A stretch of 64,000 nucleotides of DNA from Rothia terrae (GTDB lineage: Bacteria > Actinomycetota > Actinomycetes > Actinomycetales > Micrococcaceae). A program made the position numbers and the translations under genes. Location: assembly GCF_012396615.1 (NCBI RefSeq), contig NZ_JAAXPV010000002.1:62001-126000 (forward strand), given 5' to 3'. Below, in pieces: positions 43,868-51,580 of the stretch (positions within the stretch are counted from its first letter, which is position 1; each line of letters opens with the position of its first letter). Below the pieces are notes generated by a model, which worked only from the letters and a program-made list of their open reading frames with translations, was not told the DNA's origin and made no database searches.

Positions 43868-44266
43868 TTACTTACGAATATCCACGAGATCTACGACGAA
43901 GATCAATGACTCGTTAGGACCAATTGCGCTACCGGCACCGCGCTCGCCATAAGCCATTGCTGAAGGAATCTCAAGGCGACGACGTCCACCAACCTTCATA
44001 CCAATTAGACCTTCATCCCAGCCCTGAATTACCTGACCAACACCAGCAGTGAAACCAAGAGGCTCACCACGGTTCCACGATGAGTCAAATTCTTCACCGG
44101 TGGAAAAAGCTACACCAACATAGTGGCACTGGATGTAATTGCAGGGTTCAACAGCAGGACCATTGCCCTCAATGAGGTCGGTAATCACCAATTCAGTGGG
44201 CTCACCGCCCTCAGGGAAATCAATTTCAGGCTTGGTGCGATCAAGTTTGCGCTCGCCAAATGACAT
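43868..44266 (-). CDS. FKBP-type peptidyl-prolyl isomerase (cytoplasmic)
   Basis: 132 residues from ATG 44266, preceded by GAGGAGAACACT; a longer frame extends upstream into the previous gene but has no support. One FKBP domain: CHYVGVAFSTGEEFDSSW, VIQGWDEGLIGMKVGGRRRLEIP and AYGERGAGSAIGPNESLIFVVDLVDI, with the usual active-site aromatic and aspartate residues. It catalyses cis-trans isomerisation of prolyl bonds. No signal peptide, so probably cytoplasmic. Paired with the lipoprotein FKBP gene immediately upstream, 28 bases away. Confidence 0.94.
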   Translation of the reverse strand: MSFGERKLDRTKPEIDFPEGGEPTELVITDLIEGNGPAVEPCNYIQCHYVGVAFSTGEEFDSSWNRGEPLGFTAGVGQVIQGWDEGLIGMKVGGRRRLEIPSAMAYGERGAGSAIGPNESLIFVVDLVDIRK

Positions 44267-44294
44267 AGTGTTCTCCTCTTCTTCGATGAGTGTT

Positions 44295-45323
44295 TTACTT
44301 AGATTCTTCAGGCTGAGGTGTTTCTGACTGAGCAGGAGCTGATGATGCCTCACCAGTCTCAGCAGGTGCAGACTGAGTTTCAGTCGCAGCGGGTGCATCT
44401 GAGCGTCCCAAGATATCCACCACGAAGACCAGCGGGCCTTCGGGCATCTGGTTTTCCTTAGCGTTCTCGCCGTATGCCTTATCAGTGGGGATAGTCACCA
44501 TGACGCGTGAACCGACCTTCTTACCGGCAAGGCCTTCAACCCACCCCTCAACCAGGCTGTCTTTACTGAGCTGGAAAGCTGCGGGAGCCGCATCGTAATT
44601 CTGGTCGAAAACCTTACCGTCGTTCCAGGTCACACCGATGTAACGTGCGTAGACGGTATCGCCCTCATTGACGGTTTCGCCGTTACCGGTAATCAAATCG
44701 TCGGTCACAACTTCCTTGGGCTCGTCCCCCTTATTCTCAGGAAGAGTGAGGGTAGCTTTATTGCCTTCGAGAGTGAACTTAGGCTTATCAGCACCAAGAT
44801 CTTTCTGCTCACCTTCTACAGAGGACGGAAGCTTCTGAGAAATGGTGTACACCTCTACGTTGGTGGCGGAGCCGGGGCTGCTGGTGGACTTAGTTCCATC
44901 TTGACCCATTGTGGTGTTGGTGGTGTACGAGAAGCTCGTGCCAACCTTAGCCTGAGAGACTACATCGTAGATTTCAGGGGCATTTTCTTTCAGCTGGTCA
45001 TTGACCTCAATAATCAACGGCGATGAAGTGTAGGTTGAACCCTGCGATTTACCGTCAGCACCTGAGAATACAGATGCATTAAGTACAAGCGCGTCACCTT
45101 CATTCACCTGATCACCAGAACCATCTTCAATGATGTGAGTCTGGTTGCCGGTAGCCGCGAAGGGGGTCTCAAAACCGACAGAAGGCTCAGCAGTTGCGCC
45201 CTTCATATCGTAATCAACATCCTCAAGCTTCTGAGTACCTGAACCGCACGCGGTCAATGCCAAAACAACCACAGCGGAGGTAGCGGCCCACGTCAACTTC
45301 TTAGCTGCAAATTTCTTCTTCAT
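44295..45323 (-). CDS. FKBP-type isomerase lipoprotein
   Basis: 342 residues. The N-terminus is a lipoprotein signal (TSAVVVLALTACGSG, Cys as the lipid site). The C-terminal domain is a canonical FKBP (YARYIGVTWNDGKVFDQNY, EGWVEGLAGKKVGSRVMVTIP, GPLVFVVDILG), and residues about 70-150 look like a degenerate second FKBP repeat (EGDALVLNASVFSGADGKS). The last 40 residues are a Ser/Glu/Pro/Ala tail. Surface-bound foldase in the actinobacterial envelope. Adjacent to pafA upstream. Confidence 0.92.
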   Translation of the reverse strand: MKKKFAAKKLTWAATSAVVVLALTACGSGTQKLEDVDYDMKGATAEPSVGFETPFAATGNQTHIIEDGSGDQVNEGDALVLNASVFSGADGKSQGSTYTSSPLIIEVNDQLKENAPEIYDVVSQAKVGTSFSYTTNTTMGQDGTKSTSSPGSATNVEVYTISQKLPSSVEGEQKDLGADKPKFTLEGNKATLTLPENKGDEPKEVVTDDLITGNGETVNEGDTVYARYIGVTWNDGKVFDQNYDAAPAAFQLSKDSLVEGWVEGLAGKKVGSRVMVTIPTDKAYGENAKENQMPEGPLVFVVDILGRSDAPAATETQSAPAETGEASSAPAQSETPQPEESK

Positions 45324-45407: not shown

Positions 45408-46841
45408 TTAGATAAATGGCGGTGCCCAAGAGGTGCTTGGCGCAATACCATCCAGCACTTTGATCAGAGCCTGAACGTCCTCAGATTCCGTGGCAAACGG
45501 ATCCTTGCACATCACCGTATGCTGCGGGTACGCATTCAGTTTCATGTGCACCCAATCAACGGTGAACTGCTCACCAGCATTACGAGCCGCATTGATGAAT
45601 GCACCACGCAATTTTGCGCGAGTTTCAGGCGGGTGGATAGCAGCGCGGGCAATTTCCTGCTCGCTGACAACGGTCTTAGCTTGCCCTCTTGACGCCAGTA
45701 GGTTGTAGACTCCGCGTCGGGGGTCGATGTCGTGATAAGCGAGATCCAACTGCGCAATTCGCGGATCGTCGTAACCGCTAGCACCTCGGGCGATGTAGGC
45801 GTCCAAGAGTTTTTTCTTAATCGCCCAATCGATCTCAGTGTCGATTGTAGAAAAATCATCGGCTTCAATCGCTTCTAACGTACGGGTCCAAAGATCCAGA
45901 ACATACGCTACGTCTTGGTGATGTTCACCCTTGATTTCTACGAAAGCTCGAGCAGATTCAAGGTAGTGACGCTGCATTTCTAAAGCGCTGATTTCCCCAC
46001 CGTCAGCTAGGGCAAAACGCGCCGTGCCGGTGAGATCATGAGAAATGGTACGCAAAGCCGTCGCGGTATCTTTAACGGCAAAATCCTTGAGCGGATAGCG
46101 CTCTTCGAGCATGCGTAGCACGAGGTCGGTCGCACCAATTTTTAGAAGCGTGGTGGTTTGCGACATGTTAGAGTCGCCGTTAATCACGTGGAGTCGGCGG
46201 TATAAAGACGCATCCGCATGCGGCTCATCGCGGGTATTGATGAGCGGACGCGAACGAGTGGTGGCTGTGGATGAGCCTTCCCAAATGTGGTCGGCTCGTT
46301 GAGAAAATGAATACGAAGGTTCTGCGCTGATACCCGGCTGTGTTCCCCACGCCGGAGGACCGGCAGGATGAGTTTTGCCAGCACCCACAATAATCTGGCG
46401 AGTAATCAGAAACGGAATCAGCGAAGCTACAAGCTTTGCGAATTCTACTTTGCGTTCAAGCATGTAGTTTTCGTGAGAGCCGTATGAGTTATCAGCAGAA
46501 TCTACGTTGTTTTTGAAAAGGTAGATAGTGCCGGTCAAATTTTCATCTTCTAGTGAATCCTCAGCCTGATTGATGAGGTCATTGAAGAGATACTCCCCCG
46601 CTTTATCGTGGGTGATGAGGTCCCGAAGAGTCGCGGTTTCTGCCGTGGCGTATTCCGGGTGTGAACCAACGTCTAGATAAAGTCTGCCGCCGTTGGGTAA
46701 AAAGACATTGGTGGAACGCCATGTGTCTACAACGGGTTTGAAGAGTTTACGGGCAGTTTCTTCTGGTCCGAGGTGTCCTAGGCTTTTAGGGATATATCTA
46801 ATGCCGTATTCGGTTTCAATGCCGTATATTCTGCGTTCCAC
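45408..46841 (-). CDS. pafA: Pup--protein ligase PafA
   Basis: 477 residues, GTG start at 46841. RRIYGIETEYGIRY is the carboxylate-amine ligase start; GSHENYMLER, GAGKTHPAGPPAWG, PLINTRDEPHADAS and RLHVINGDSNMSQT are shared by PafA and Dop, and PafA-specific FALADGG and the C-terminal ARGQAKT region are present. It uses ATP to join the Pup C-terminal glutamate to substrate lysines. In most proteasome-bearing actinobacteria prcB and prcA lie between pup and pafA; here pup ends only 48 bases upstream and they are absent. Confidence 0.97.
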   Translation of the reverse strand: MERRIYGIETEYGIRYIPKSLGHLGPEETARKLFKPVVDTWRSTNVFLPNGGRLYLDVGSHPEYATAETATLRDLITHDKAGEYLFNDLINQAEDSLEDENLTGTIYLFKNNVDSADNSYGSHENYMLERKVEFAKLVASLIPFLITRQIIVGAGKTHPAGPPAWGTQPGISAEPSYSFSQRADHIWEGSSTATTRSRPLINTRDEPHADASLYRRLHVINGDSNMSQTTTLLKIGATDLVLRMLEERYPLKDFAVKDTATALRTISHDLTGTARFALADGGEISALEMQRHYLESARAFVEIKGEHHQDVAYVLDLWTRTLEAIEADDFSTIDTEIDWAIKKKLLDAYIARGASGYDDPRIAQLDLAYHDIDPRRGVYNLLASRGQAKTVVSEQEIARAAIHPPETRAKLRGAFINAARNAGEQFTVDWVHMKLNAYPQHTVMCKDPFATESEDVQALIKVLDGIAPSTSWAPPFI

Positions 46842-46889
46842 GGGTGAATCTTTCTGGAGATAGGCGGTCAGGGTGAGGTCAGAGTATGG

Positions 46890-47090
46890 TTACTGACCGC
46901 CCTTTTGTACAAAACCCTTTACAAAGTCTTCTGCGTTTTCTTCGAGAACACCGTCAATTTCAGCGAGGATGTCATCGACGTTGGTGAGAAGCTCTTGGTT
47001 GGTCTCTGTGGTTTTTTGAGCAAGTTCTACGTGTTCCTGTTCCTGCGCGGTATGAGTAGTTTGCTGTGCCTGAATATTTTTGCGTTCCAC
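46890..47090 (-). CDS. pup: Prokaryotic ubiquitin-like protein Pup
   Basis: 66 residues from GTG 47090, chosen because AGGAGA lies five bases upstream and the length fits (about 64); longer in-frame starts would run into dop. The first half is Gln-rich and disordered (ERKNIQAQQTTHTAQEQE); the second half holds the conserved helix ILAEIDGVLEENAEDFVKGF, and the chain ends GGQ, so Dop must deamidate the last Gln to Glu before ligation. Lies between dop and pafA. Confidence 0.95.
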   Translation of the reverse strand: MERKNIQAQQTTHTAQEQEHVELAQKTTETNQELLTNVDDILAEIDGVLEENAEDFVKGFVQKGGQ

Positions 47091-47136
47091 AATGTTCTCC
47101 TGGTGATGGGCGTAGTCTGAGTGGCTAATGCCCGGT

Positions 47137-48726
47137 TTAATAGGTGTGAGAGTTTGCGCCAAGCGCTGTGAACAGCGGTTCGGCACTGGGATTTGTTAGG
47201 TAGGGCTCAATGGTTCGACGCGTGAGATCGGAGGGCTCGTTCATGGTCAGTCGATAGGTTGTTATATCGAGTGGGTTGCGAACAACGATTGTGTCCCAGT
47301 TGGCACTAATCACTTCATTTCCCCAAGTCGAGACAATTTTACCGCGGGCGTATGCTCGAGTGTCATCAGGTGGCTCACTTGCTGCCTTTTTGATGTGCTC
47401 TGCGCTGAAGAGAGTCTTTAGACGGCCGAGCCCCACCAGTTTGAAATATAAGCCTTTATCAGGTCTCAAATCTGAGTATTGGATATCGATGGCTTTGAGC
47501 TTAGGACTGTCCCAGTCAATACCTTGAGCCACATATGCTTTGAGCAACTGGTATTTTGCCGCCCAGTCGAGACGATCCGCAAGTGCATCGGGGGCGGTCG
47601 CCAGAAGGTGCAGTACCTCTTCCCACAGTTCGAGTACCTCGCGGGTTTGCTCATCTGGATTGGGATTATTATCAAGGGACGCTTCAAGATATGCCTGCTG
47701 CACCTCAAGGGCTGTGATGCTTCCGCCATTTGCAAGTGGGAGTTCTTGGGTGAAGGTGAGGTCACGGCTAACAGTGTGCATAGCAGTCACAGGATCCGTC
47801 AGCTGAATAACAGGAGCCTTGCCTTGCTCAATAAGTTCCAAAACTAAGGACATGGTACCGAACTTCAGCAAGTTAGAGTAGTGCGCTAAATTGGCGTCTC
47901 CGGTAATCACATGCAACCGGCGGTACTTTTCGCGGTCTGCATGGGGCTCATCACGAGTGTTAATGAGAGGCCGGCGGATAGTTGTTTCAAGCCCCACCAA
48001 GCGCTCAAAGAAATCAGCTCTCTGCGAGAGTTGGAAACCCGGTTCATCACCGTCAGTACCGAGCCCCACGCGTCCTGCGCCGGTATAGATAATGCGAGTA
48101 GCAAAGAAGGACGCGAGAACTTTAGTCAAGTAGTCGAAGTCAGTTTCACGGGAAATCAGGTAGTTTTCGTGAGAACCGTAAGACTGTCCTTTACCGTCGG
48201 TGTTGTTTTTATAGAGGTTGATGGGCTCGATACCGGTCTTTGCCGATGAATCGGCAAGAGTAGCAATAGTAACTGCGGCGATGTGATCGCCGGCAGCGTC
48301 CCAGAGAACGGCGTCTTGAGGGCTGGTGACCTCTGGTGATGAGTATTCGGGATGGGCGTGATCAACATAGAGGCGGGCTCCATTGGGCAAAATGGAGTTC
48401 ATGGTAATTTTGTCCCAGTCAAGACGCTCAGCAAACATACCGGATTCTTTGAGGGCCTCGGCTGCGATATCTTCGCTGGTGAGCTCGTATGCTTCATCGG
48501 TGAGCTGGCTAGAGTGCGCCTCTTCACGTTTCATCGCAAAACCGCGAGCGTCCTGAAGAGGTTGCTCAGAATCGTATTCCCATGCCGTCTTTTGGTGCTT
48601 GGAGAACGCCAAGTTGTCGTAGGTATTGACGATGGTGGCTGAAAGGACGGTATGATTCGCGGCCGGGTTGGTCGGTGAGATGACACCAAATTCGGTTTCG
48701 GCTCCCATAATGCGCTGAACACCCAT
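47137..48726 (-). CDS. dop: Pup deamidase/depupylase Dop
   Basis: 529 residues. VQRIMGAETEFGVISP starts the carboxylate-amine ligase fold shared with PafA; GSHENYLISRETDF, GAGRVGLG, PLINTRDEPHAD and RLHVITGDANLAHYS follow. It is longer than PafA, as Dop normally is because of an extra N-terminal loop (about residues 40-80, which carries the acidic/Gln segment). Dop converts the terminal Gln of Pup to Glu and removes Pup from substrates. The ATG lies two bases after the arc stop. Confidence 0.95.
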   Translation of the reverse strand: MGVQRIMGAETEFGVISPTNPAANHTVLSATIVNTYDNLAFSKHQKTAWEYDSEQPLQDARGFAMKREEAHSSQLTDEAYELTSEDIAAEALKESGMFAERLDWDKITMNSILPNGARLYVDHAHPEYSSPEVTSPQDAVLWDAAGDHIAAVTIATLADSSAKTGIEPINLYKNNTDGKGQSYGSHENYLISRETDFDYLTKVLASFFATRIIYTGAGRVGLGTDGDEPGFQLSQRADFFERLVGLETTIRRPLINTRDEPHADREKYRRLHVITGDANLAHYSNLLKFGTMSLVLELIEQGKAPVIQLTDPVTAMHTVSRDLTFTQELPLANGGSITALEVQQAYLEASLDNNPNPDEQTREVLELWEEVLHLLATAPDALADRLDWAAKYQLLKAYVAQGIDWDSPKLKAIDIQYSDLRPDKGLYFKLVGLGRLKTLFSAEHIKKAASEPPDDTRAYARGKIVSTWGNEVISANWDTIVVRNPLDITTYRLTMNEPSDLTRRTIEPYLTNPSAEPLFTALGANSHTY

Positions 48727-48728
48727 GG

Positions 48729-50405
48729 TTACTCCCCTCGTCCTGAGCGCGCTGGAGTGACGGTGTGGATGCGCGCCCTGATGTTGTATTGCGTGAGCAC
48801 GTCTTCGATTTCAGCGGTTTGCGGAACTTCGACCTGATCCTCAAATTCTGCGCGGATAGCTTCTAAGACGTGCTGAGCAGTAATACCTTTTTCGCCACCG
48901 GTGAGTAGCGACTTAATGGCCTGTTTTTTGGCGGAGTCTACGATATTGCGGATCACCGCGCCCGTGAGAAAGTCTCCACGGTACAGGGTGAGAGTTTGCC
49001 CGTTGTCCAAGGTGAGAGTGAGGTAACGATTGTAGTCTTCGCGTGAGAACAGGGACTCTACTGCCCGATTAATCATCGCATCAATAGCGAGCTCTTTACT
49101 GCCGGCCGCATCGATAGCGTCCTGACTGATAGGGATGCGCGGCGTCAGGTAAAGCGCGAAAATTTCACGTGCGCCTTCAGCATTCGGGCGATTGATGCGA
49201 ATCTTAATGTCGAGACGGCCCGGTCGCAGAACCGCGGGATCAATCATGTCTTCACGGTTAGTAGCACCGATGACAATGACGTTATCCAGGGATTCGACAC
49301 CGTCGATTTCTGACAACAGCTGGGGAACAATAGTGGTTTCCACGTCGGAGGAACGACCTGTTCCGCGGGTACGGAAGAGCGACTCCATCTCATCGAAGAA
49401 AACAACAACGGGATTACCCTCTGCGGCCTTCTGACGGGCAGCAGAGAAGATATCGCGAATCTGCCGTTCTGTCTCGCCTACATATTTATCCAGTAGCTCC
49501 GGACCCTTGATATTGAGAAAGTAGCCGGTTGTAGACGAATCTTTAGAAATCTCAGCTGCGCGTTGCGCAAGAGAATTAGCCACGGCTTTTGCAATAAGAG
49601 TCTTACCGTTACCGGGAGGGCCGTAGAGCAGGATGCCTTTGGGCGGAGTCAACTGGTGTTCACGGTAAATCTCGGGGTGCAAGAAAGGTAGCTCAACCGC
49701 ATCCTGGATCTGTTCAATCTGAGAAGAAAGACCACCAATGTTGGCGTAGGTGATGTTCGGAACCTCTTCAAGAACCAGCTCCTGCGCCTCAGTAGAAGGA
49801 ACCTGCGCCAGAATCAGACCGGTCTTAGAGTCATAGGTAACGGTATCGCCCGTACTCAACGAAACCCCAGCAAGCGCTCCCGAAATACGCGCCACTGCTT
49901 TGTTCTGATTAGGGAGATCAATGATGATCTGCTTATCATCAATCTTCTCTCGGATAGTAACAACTTCACCGTAAGTGCTGTACCCCAGTGATAGGACAGC
50001 TTGATTATGCTCGTTGAGCAGAACTGTCATACCGGGTTCTACATCCTCGGGCGACAGGAGCGGTGAAAAGGGAATACGCACCAGCCTACCGCCGAGCTGA
50101 ACGTCAAGGTAATCCTCAACCTCAGCCGGGGTCTTACCGGAAGCTAGCTGGTCGTAGGTCATCTTGCCGCGCCCTACCTCAAGAACCACAGCTGAATTGA
50201 GCGGTGGTTCTACCTCTTGCGCGACGGAGACTCGAATACGCTCGATTTCAGCTTTAGTAATTTCTAGCGCTTTGACAAGTTTTTGGTTCTTCTCCCCGGC
50301 AAGGCGCAGTTGGCGGTCCAGGTTCTTGCGGTTTTCGTTCGCAAGAGTGAGCTGGCGCAGTACGCGTTCGTAATCGGTGGTTGAAGGTCCGTTAGTGTCG
50401 GTCAT
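48729..50405 (-). CDS. arc: Proteasome-type AAA ATPase (ARC/Mpa)
   Basis: 558 residues. An N-terminal coiled coil (YERVLRQLTLANENRKNL to about residue 55) that binds Pup, two OB folds (to about 210), then one AAA module: Walker A GPPGNGKTLIAKAVA, Walker B VVFFDEMESLFRTRG, and the arginine finger region LRPGRLDIKI. The ring unfolds pupylated proteins. The C-terminus reads PARSGRGE and lacks the GQYL tail that docks Mpa onto the 20S core. Linked tightly to dop (two-base gap). Confidence 0.96.
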   Translation of the reverse strand: MTDTNGPSTTDYERVLRQLTLANENRKNLDRQLRLAGEKNQKLVKALEITKAEIERIRVSVAQEVEPPLNSAVVLEVGRGKMTYDQLASGKTPAEVEDYLDVQLGGRLVRIPFSPLLSPEDVEPGMTVLLNEHNQAVLSLGYSTYGEVVTIREKIDDKQIIIDLPNQNKAVARISGALAGVSLSTGDTVTYDSKTGLILAQVPSTEAQELVLEEVPNITYANIGGLSSQIEQIQDAVELPFLHPEIYREHQLTPPKGILLYGPPGNGKTLIAKAVANSLAQRAAEISKDSSTTGYFLNIKGPELLDKYVGETERQIRDIFSAARQKAAEGNPVVVFFDEMESLFRTRGTGRSSDVETTIVPQLLSEIDGVESLDNVIVIGATNREDMIDPAVLRPGRLDIKIRINRPNAEGAREIFALYLTPRIPISQDAIDAAGSKELAIDAMINRAVESLFSREDYNRYLTLTLDNGQTLTLYRGDFLTGAVIRNIVDSAKKQAIKSLLTGGEKGITAQHVLEAIRAEFEDQVEVPQTAEIEDVLTQYNIRARIHTVTPARSGRGE

Positions 50406-50456: not shown

Positions 50457-51476
50457 TTAGTTACTGGTATTGATATGTTCGCTAGCTCGCGCAGCATGCT
50501 GAGCAAGATTCTGTGCATCTCGAGCCGCACGTCGCAACTTGCGGTCAGTCACATTGCGCTCGCCCAGTGATGCTGGCGTCCAGGCATTCATATCTTCTTC
50601 AGAGAACTCGGTCTTGGACGCGCGTCGTTTGGGTGCAAGACGCACCGCTCCGTCGGCGAGACGGCGGGCAGTAATCAGGAAGCCGGTGTGCGCGACCATA
50701 CGGTGGTCAGGTCGAACAGCGAGACCCTCAACATGCCAGCCTCGAACCATGGTTTCGTGCGACTCAGGTTCGGTGAAACGGCCGTCAGCGCGAAGTGCTT
50801 CTGCGGTACGAGAGAGCTGAGTGACGGTTGCAACGTAGCAAATAATCACACCACCAGGCGCCAGAGCAGTCGCCACAGCATCAAGGCATTCCCAAGGGGC
50901 AAGCATATCGAGTACCGCACGGTCTACGCTGCCAGGTTCTTCGACCTCCCCAAGAGTTTCAGCCAGATCCCCTAGAGTAATCTCCCACGCTGGATGCGGA
51001 CCACCGAACATAGTTTCAACGTTGCCACGGGCAATATCCGCGAATTCCTCGCGACGTTCAAACGAACGCAGATGACCTTCATCGCCGATTGCACGCAACA
51101 AACCAATAGACAAAGCACCGGAACCTACGCCCGCTTCAATAACGCGTGCACCCGGGTAAATATCTGCCATGGTAACAATCTGACCGGCGTCCTTGGGATA
51201 AACCACAGCCGCACCGCGAGGCATCGACAGCACAAAGTCCTTGTAGAGAGGGCGAAGGGCCTGGAAAAGAAGACCCTCAGAATTCTCAATAACAGTGCCC
51301 TCATCGTGCCCGATGAGGTCGTTGTGATTGAGGAACCCTCGATGCGAGTGGTACTGGCCATCCTCTTGCAAGGTGATGGTAGTGATGCGTCCGCGCTCAT
51401 CAGTAATTTGGACGCGCTCGCCGGGGCGGAATGGACCGCGGCGGTTGTTAGCGCCAGTGGGATTGTGTTGAGTCAT
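50457..51476 (-). CDS. trmI: tRNA (adenine-N1-)-methyltransferase TrmI
   Basis: 339 residues from ATG 51476 (a TTG six codons earlier is also in frame). The actinobacterial N-terminal barrel (GPFRPGERVQITDERGRITT) is followed by the methyltransferase core: VIEAGVGSGALSIGLLRAIG binds S-adenosylmethionine, and DRAVLDMLAPWECLDAV is motif IV. It makes m1A58 in the T loop of tRNAs. A TrmI homologue next to the ARC/Mpa gene is conserved across actinobacteria. Confidence 0.93.
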   Translation of the reverse strand: MTQHNPTGANNRRGPFRPGERVQITDERGRITTITLQEDGQYHSHRGFLNHNDLIGHDEGTVIENSEGLLFQALRPLYKDFVLSMPRGAAVVYPKDAGQIVTMADIYPGARVIEAGVGSGALSIGLLRAIGDEGHLRSFERREEFADIARGNVETMFGGPHPAWEITLGDLAETLGEVEEPGSVDRAVLDMLAPWECLDAVATALAPGGVIICYVATVTQLSRTAEALRADGRFTEPESHETMVRGWHVEGLAVRPDHRMVAHTGFLITARRLADGAVRLAPKRRASKTEFSEEDMNAWTPASLGERNVTDRKLRRAARDAQNLAQHAARASEHINTSN

Positions 51477-51580
51477 AGATTTTTCTTTCGCCAAGATGTT
51501 AGTGACGGGTTGGTGCCGTCCTGCGGTAAGAGCGCTTGAGACGGTGCTGTAGTTCTATTGTCTCAAACCGAGTGAGATTT

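Follow-up and report, generated by a model that had tools for sequence, protein, structure and literature searches.

What is protein tagging with Pup for in a bacterium in which the 20S protease genes are missing from their place among the tagging genes? The question is raised by a locus in the window, i.e., the whole stretch of 64,000 nucleotides from Rothia terrae analyzed here, in which arc, dop, pup and pafA are all intact and lie on the minus strand at 50405-45408, as identified from open reading frames and NCBIfam profiles. Arrangements of this kind have precedents. Passages of PMC3511204 describe actinobacteria that keep pupylation without 20S genes, with pup then placed directly before pafA, and note that the ATPases of these organisms are without the docking motif and more variable in sequence. 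A subgroup without 20S genes, probably resulting from secondary loss, is also referred to in part of PMC8223512, where a legend names C. glutamicum and M. luteus.

The gene order arc-dop-pup-pafA on one strand, reported in a preliminary description of this DNA, is borne out, as all four genes pass their NCBIfam cut-offs (Table 1), and the coordinates confirm the 48-base gap without prcB or prcA, which extends from the pup stop to the pafA GTG; the corresponding spacer in 20S-bearing relatives is about 1.5-1.7 kb. The ARC protein is laid out as an N-terminal coiled coil followed by an OB region and an AAA module, contains the strings GPPGNGKT, VVFFDEME and KYVGE, which we take to be AAA-module motifs, and matches PDB 5kwa at E 3.6e-144, while Dop matches PDB 4b0r at E 6.4e-135. 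In an alignment to 4b0t and 4bjr, PafA retains GIETEYG and LYLDVGSHPEYA, and carries Asp in place of the Asn of the 4bjr construct; its best named matches among those listed, where very near records may be absent, are from Rothia sp. P100 (76%) and R. endophytica (75%). The Pup profile score is 63.6 bits (NCBIfam cut-off 41.45), and the probable pup start is placed at the GTG at 47090, rather than at 47186 of the mechanical ORF list, because AGGAG stands before that GTG. Beyond pafA, a pair of FKBP-type ORFs separates the locus from a 628-aa WYL protein, which is likely a PafB-PafC fusion (HTH_PafC is matched at 29.4 bits, below the cut-off of 32).

Table 1. Features of the pupylation locus and its neighbors (positions in the window)
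Feature	Position	Strand	Evidence or remark
TrmI-type tRNA methyltransferase, upstream of arc	50457..51494	-	PF14801, PF08704
arc (Mpa-type AAA ATPase), 558 aa	48729..50405	-	TIGR03689, 652.8 bits (cut-off 504.75)
dop (Pup deamidase/depupylase), 529 aa	47137..48726	-	TIGR03688, 600.3 bits (cut-off 492.3)
pup, 66 aa from GTG, C-terminus VQKGGQ	46890..47090	-	PF05639 and TIGR03687, above cut-off
pup-pafA spacer, 48 nt	46842..46889	-	prcB-prcA found here in 20S-bearing relatives
pafA (Pup ligase), 477 aa	45408..46841	-	TIGR03686, 646.7 bits (cut-off 551.3)
Two FKBP-type prolyl isomerase ORFs, mechanical starts overlapping	43868..45323	-	PF00254
WYL protein, 628 aa	41928..43814	-	Two WYL stretches above cut-off

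A profile search with PF00227 gives no match anywhere in the 41 contigs of the window genome, a draft of Rothia terrae (G000; 2.48 Mb, 99.98% complete), and none in the 35 genomes searched from the genus; of these, 32 are good, i.e., at least 90% complete and at most 5% contaminated, and four are single-contig. The rest of the genome, on which the preliminary description had made its reading conditional, is thus likewise without a 20S match. The search does detect actinobacterial subunits, because 162 of 295 genomes drawn from the Micrococcaceae match, in 19 of 32 genera; for the other 13 genera no genome drawn has a match. Genes of the Pup-ligase family are found in 294 of the 295 genomes, the sole miss being 82% complete. 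Remnants of prcBA were sought with PrcA and PrcB profiles in 15 spacers, namely those of the window and of L011 and 13 spacers of at least 20 nt from a set of 60 genomes, which was selected by hand and together with G000 spans all 32 genera. None was found in the window spacer, and a single spacer, that of L098, matches either profile.

The history of the 20S genes was read from an RpoB tree built from 58 genomes, of which 24 have a 20S and 34 do not; it is a quick one-gene tree without bootstraps. It was chosen over a tree based on ARC, Dop and PafA, equally quick and without bootstraps, because the latter has long branches, for which a warning was raised, and places some 20S-less genera at the base. 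In the RpoB tree, Rothia and Kocuria form one six-row clade (SH-aLRT 100), all of it 20S-less, which joins (96) a 21-row clade (81) with 17 of 21 rows 20S-bearing. At least 7 changes of the 20S label are required on this tree and 6 on the locus tree; when only losses are allowed, 12 are needed on the RpoB tree for the Micrococcaceae, and 12 to 15 are obtained over all rootings. From the RpoB tree we infer that the loss of prcBA dates back to the common ancestor of Rothia and Kocuria or further. The preliminary description had proposed an independent loss in this lineage. In trees confined to the Micrococcaceae, where prcBA is in place in many members including the 17 sister-clade rows, a loss separate from that in Corynebacterium can indeed be inferred, but it is not specific to Rothia, as Kocuria shares it. 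A special position of the lineage is not supported, because the loss is shared with Kocuria, in 13 of 32 genera no genome drawn has a PF00227 match and the general case is in print. A comparison of the locus across relatives, which had been called for, finds prcB-prcA in the pup-pafA gap of 20S-bearing relatives and the loss common to Kocuria; relatives with the complete Pup-proteasome system, such as Arthrobacter (L038) and Sinomonas (L072), have the same gene order as the window, but differ in carrying prcB-prcA between pup and pafA and in an ARC that ends in GQYL. In genus g26 a close natural pair is seen, with prcBA absent in G077 (L124) and present in G026 (L137).

The window ARC ends in RIHTVTPARSGRGE (...ARSGRGE) and the GQYL docking motif is absent. 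ARC ends were read in two overlapping sets, one of 80 loci and one consisting of the 60 chosen genomes. In the former, 43 loci have prcBA in the stretch, and GQYL ends all 41 of the ARCs present, while the 37 loci without prcBA gave 36 ARC ends, one of which is GQYL; these 36 include that of L051, where the tail is unreliable due to a broken frame. (An odd start of pafA considered for L051 was rejected, as a run of N lies inside pafA and the ARC frame is broken.) In the 60-genome set GQYL ends are found in 21 of 26 genomes with 20S vs 1 of 34 without. Measured against the consensus of 20S-bearing GQYL relatives, conservation of the window ARC falls from the AAA module, where 79% of the conserved columns are retained, to the last helix-strand segment (16%) and the tail (8%). 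The hairpin by which ARC/Mpa contacts the 20S in mycobacteria, described in a passage of PMC8755798, reads DNGQ in the window and ANGD or ANGE in 18 of 20 GQYL relatives, and parts of it are kept in some 20S-less relatives. An AlphaFold model of the window ARC (mean pLDDT 77.8, pTM 0.56) has an Mpa-like fold, and the best 30 ranks of a Foldseek search with this model are all mycobacterial Mpa; in the segment NTTNPDDW...IRTI, at first labeled as the beta-grasp, the model has the last helix and strand only, and these are still predicted in Rothia.

A search for exact GQYL ends, which any different docking motif would escape, yielded no plausible gene in G000, where the two GQYL-stop strings present are preceded by 6 and 34 open codons. 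In the control genomes G009 and G026 the search recovered both ARC and Bpa, together with one extra GQYL-stop string each (211 and 43 open codons), which was taken for chance. Bpa (PF10759) has no match in G000. Among the 295 family genomes it is found in 147, in 146 of them above cut-off, and it is present in most 20S-bearing genomes; 16 of the 162 are without a match, including G167 (71% complete) and G155 (7% contaminated), and 20S-bearing G076 has a sub-cut-off fragment only. In the 295-genome survey G008 is the only genome with Bpa and without 20S. These cases add exceptions to the statement, made in a passage of PMC8223512, that the occurrence of Bpa is strictly tied to that of the 20S; an earlier exception is Propionibacterium acnes, in which according to a passage of PMC4254994 a 20S is present while ARC and Bpa are both absent, a precedent for an orphan 20S.

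The way in which the protease disappeared is visible in some relatives. Haematomicrobium sanguinis (L056; L098/G008) has zero PF00227 matches, and its pup-pafA spacer of 272 nt (275 if the pup stop is included) contains an open frame, the end of which matches the PrcA C-terminus (25.6 bits, E 3.7e-7, against E 1.8 for the best of 999 shuffles). The start of the frame weakly resembles the PrcB N-terminus (8.5 bits, E 0.075, against 2.2 for the best shuffle), which also gives a 35.8-bit BLAST match, part of it in a frame overlapping pup. The simplest reading of this scar would be a deletion that fused the prcB start to the prcA end, where the prcA part is well supported and the prcB part less so. 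The ARC of this species retains its GQYL end, an exception to the published rule that 20S-less ATPases lack the docking motif, and its Bpa ORF (L244) also ends in GQYL, with part of an internal helix missing (by eye). As judged from these sequences, the protease was here lost first and the docking tail retained. A full-text search of open-licence papers for Haematomicrobium together with the proteasome gave none.

In genera g2 (G001/L125) and g21 (G093/L143, G110/L144, G155/L145), prcB and prcA lie between pup and pafA, PrcB retains ATT and PrcA retains SL.K. For g21 the dN/dS values of PrcB and PrcA are 0.06-0.13, where most pairs are saturated and the single pair with dS <1 gives 0.06 and 0.07, which points to purifying selection on the 20S in this genus. 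The ARC of both genera is without GQYL and has an eroded end that retains 40% (g2) or 28% (g21), and Bpa was not found in the 20S-bearing g2 and g21 genomes. A search for GQYL-ended genes gave nothing convincing, with none in G001 and G110, a 13-codon frame in G093 and frames of 5 and 124 codons in G155, where the 124-codon frame is at most a candidate. Contamination is listed for G110 (4%), G155 (7%) and G093 (4%), and the genes concerned lie within the locus itself, in G093 on a single contig. In another g21 genome, the above-mentioned G167, prcBA is found outside the stretch read, and in other g21 species prcBA is absent. It would appear that g2 and g21 have kept a 20S without a recognized activator. 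As GQYL is missing in every member read of the clade composed of g12, g3, g14, g2, g16 and g21, the ARC tail may have been lost once in this clade, before repeated losses of the 20S. It seems that neither the docking parts nor the protease must be lost first.

Compared with a complete system, the window genome has pup, dop, pafA and ARC and is without a match to the 20S subunits or Bpa and without a GQYL end on ARC. It resembles C. glutamicum in that arc, dop, pup and pafA are kept, prcBA is gone and the docking motif is absent, and the strain studied here has a ferritin gene. Differences are that the loss appears to be independent, that no ferritin match is obtained in half of the good Rothia genomes, and that the Pup of the window ends in GGQ and should need deamidation by Dop, whereas C. 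glutamicum Pup ends in GGE. A GGE end is also seen in scattered species (L009, L010, L022, L023, L104, L146), in which this deamidation should be unnecessary; the Dop ORF is still present in these loci. As far as genes alone are considered, the gene features of the proteasome-less C. glutamicum type, taken from part of PMC3511204, are those found here: pup adjoins pafA, 20S genes are absent and so is the docking motif. The Pup locus of Micrococcus luteus, a member of the same family, is 20S-less by our reading of the legend in PMC8223512. The window locus belongs to the already described type of 20S-less pupylation, and the new details lie in the relatives. A full-text search of open-licence papers for pupylation in Rothia gave nothing except a review of Streptomyces development in which the words are used apart.

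The draft state of the assembly, with its 41 contigs, would allow prcBA to be present but missed, either in a gap or as divergent subunits elsewhere. We consider this to be very improbable, because none of the 35 genus genomes, including the four single-contig ones, gave a 20S match, which makes an assembly gap unlikely, and the absence of GQYL and Bpa agrees. That the locus is decaying and non-functional, a scenario suggested by the loss of the 20S, Bpa and the ARC tail, is hardly conceivable given the low dN/dS across Rothia and the four open frames found in each Rothia locus except in L021, which is split, and L016, at a contig end. In a set of 13 Rothia loci and the window, from which these two were excluded, the median dN/dS values of ARC, Dop, PafA and Pup are 0.05, 0.07, 0.09 and 0.28, with maxima for single pairs of 0.28, 0.10, 0.37 and 0.57, respectively; they were obtained from 14, 12, 18 and 23 usable pairs of 91 each, which share sequences and are non-independent. 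Thus, all four genes are under purifying selection in Rothia, which does not single out the selected step. The L021 locus (G296:C144), with pafA alone, was considered as a loss of three genes; this was rejected, as arc, dop and pup lie on the same contig at a distance of about 60 kb (L247), with pafA in the opposite orientation.

Two other alternatives accept that the tagging is functional and differ in its purpose. ARC, a translocating motor by homology, might hand pupylated proteins to another chambered protease, e.g., ClpP, such that pupylation would still be a degradation signal. We found nothing direct in favor of such a link, and by eye the 20S-less ARCs share no replacement tail motif and their ends vary even within Rothia, which makes it unlikely. 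Alternatively, pupylation in Rothia could serve the release of iron from ferritin, as described for C. glutamicum in passages of PMC8223512 and PMC12288473. The window genome encodes a non-heme ferritin (C14:40079-40594) and Dps (NCBIfam best matches, below cut-offs), and the Corynebacterium analogy drawn in the preliminary description may hold for this strain. When this ferritin is used as a query, however, no more than 15 of the 31 Rothia genomes give a match, 9 of them at 67-100% identity and 6 at 32-34%; the 28 good genomes divide into 14 with and 14 without a match, and two incomplete ones bring the genomes without a match to 16. These 14 have one above-cut-off PF00210 match each, and G173 a second, sub-cut-off one; the matches were taken for Dps by E-value, with the sequence checked in G000 and G002. 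All 12 checkable genomes of these 14 have two Pup-ligase-family genes. Because half of the good genomes have no ferritin match and the 12 of these that were checked keep the ligase genes, the ferritin model can hardly be the whole answer, and the analogy does not hold up across the genus as the only function. Ferritin is a possible substrate in this strain and could hardly be the sole one in the genus; its release probably does not explain why pupylation is maintained in Rothia generally, and the iron-release explanation as a whole is quite improbable.

Rothia thus probably maintains a working, reversible Pup tagging that is separated from proteolysis, where the chemistry and the unfolding are deduced from the known biochemistry of PafA, Dop and Mpa. 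Given the absence of the GQYL tail, the lack of a Bpa match and the purifying selection on the four genes, ARC is most likely a stand-alone Pup-directed unfoldase. In such a pathway Dop would turn Pup-GGQ into Pup-GGE, which PafA would couple to substrate lysines; ARC would then bind the Pup tag, pull, and unfold or dismantle the tagged protein or complex. Without a 20S partner the product would be released and Pup taken off by Dop. The docking tail of ARC would have been lost either before or after prcBA.

More tentatively, tagging and ARC may already have formed a stand-alone remodeling pathway in the Micrococcaceae while the 20S was present. In one branch the ARC tail and Bpa would have been lost first, leaving a selected, uncoupled proteasome in g2 and g21, and the 20S would then have been lost repeatedly; Rothia would represent an end state, with substrates other than ferritin. 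The interest is mostly in this comparative picture around the window and not in a special loss in the Rothia lineage. The observations suggest that 20S-less pupylation is not generally explained by ferritin release, and as the 20S was lost many times within one family, close pairs, i.e., those within g21 and G026 vs G077, are suited to a search for a degradation-independent role of Pup.
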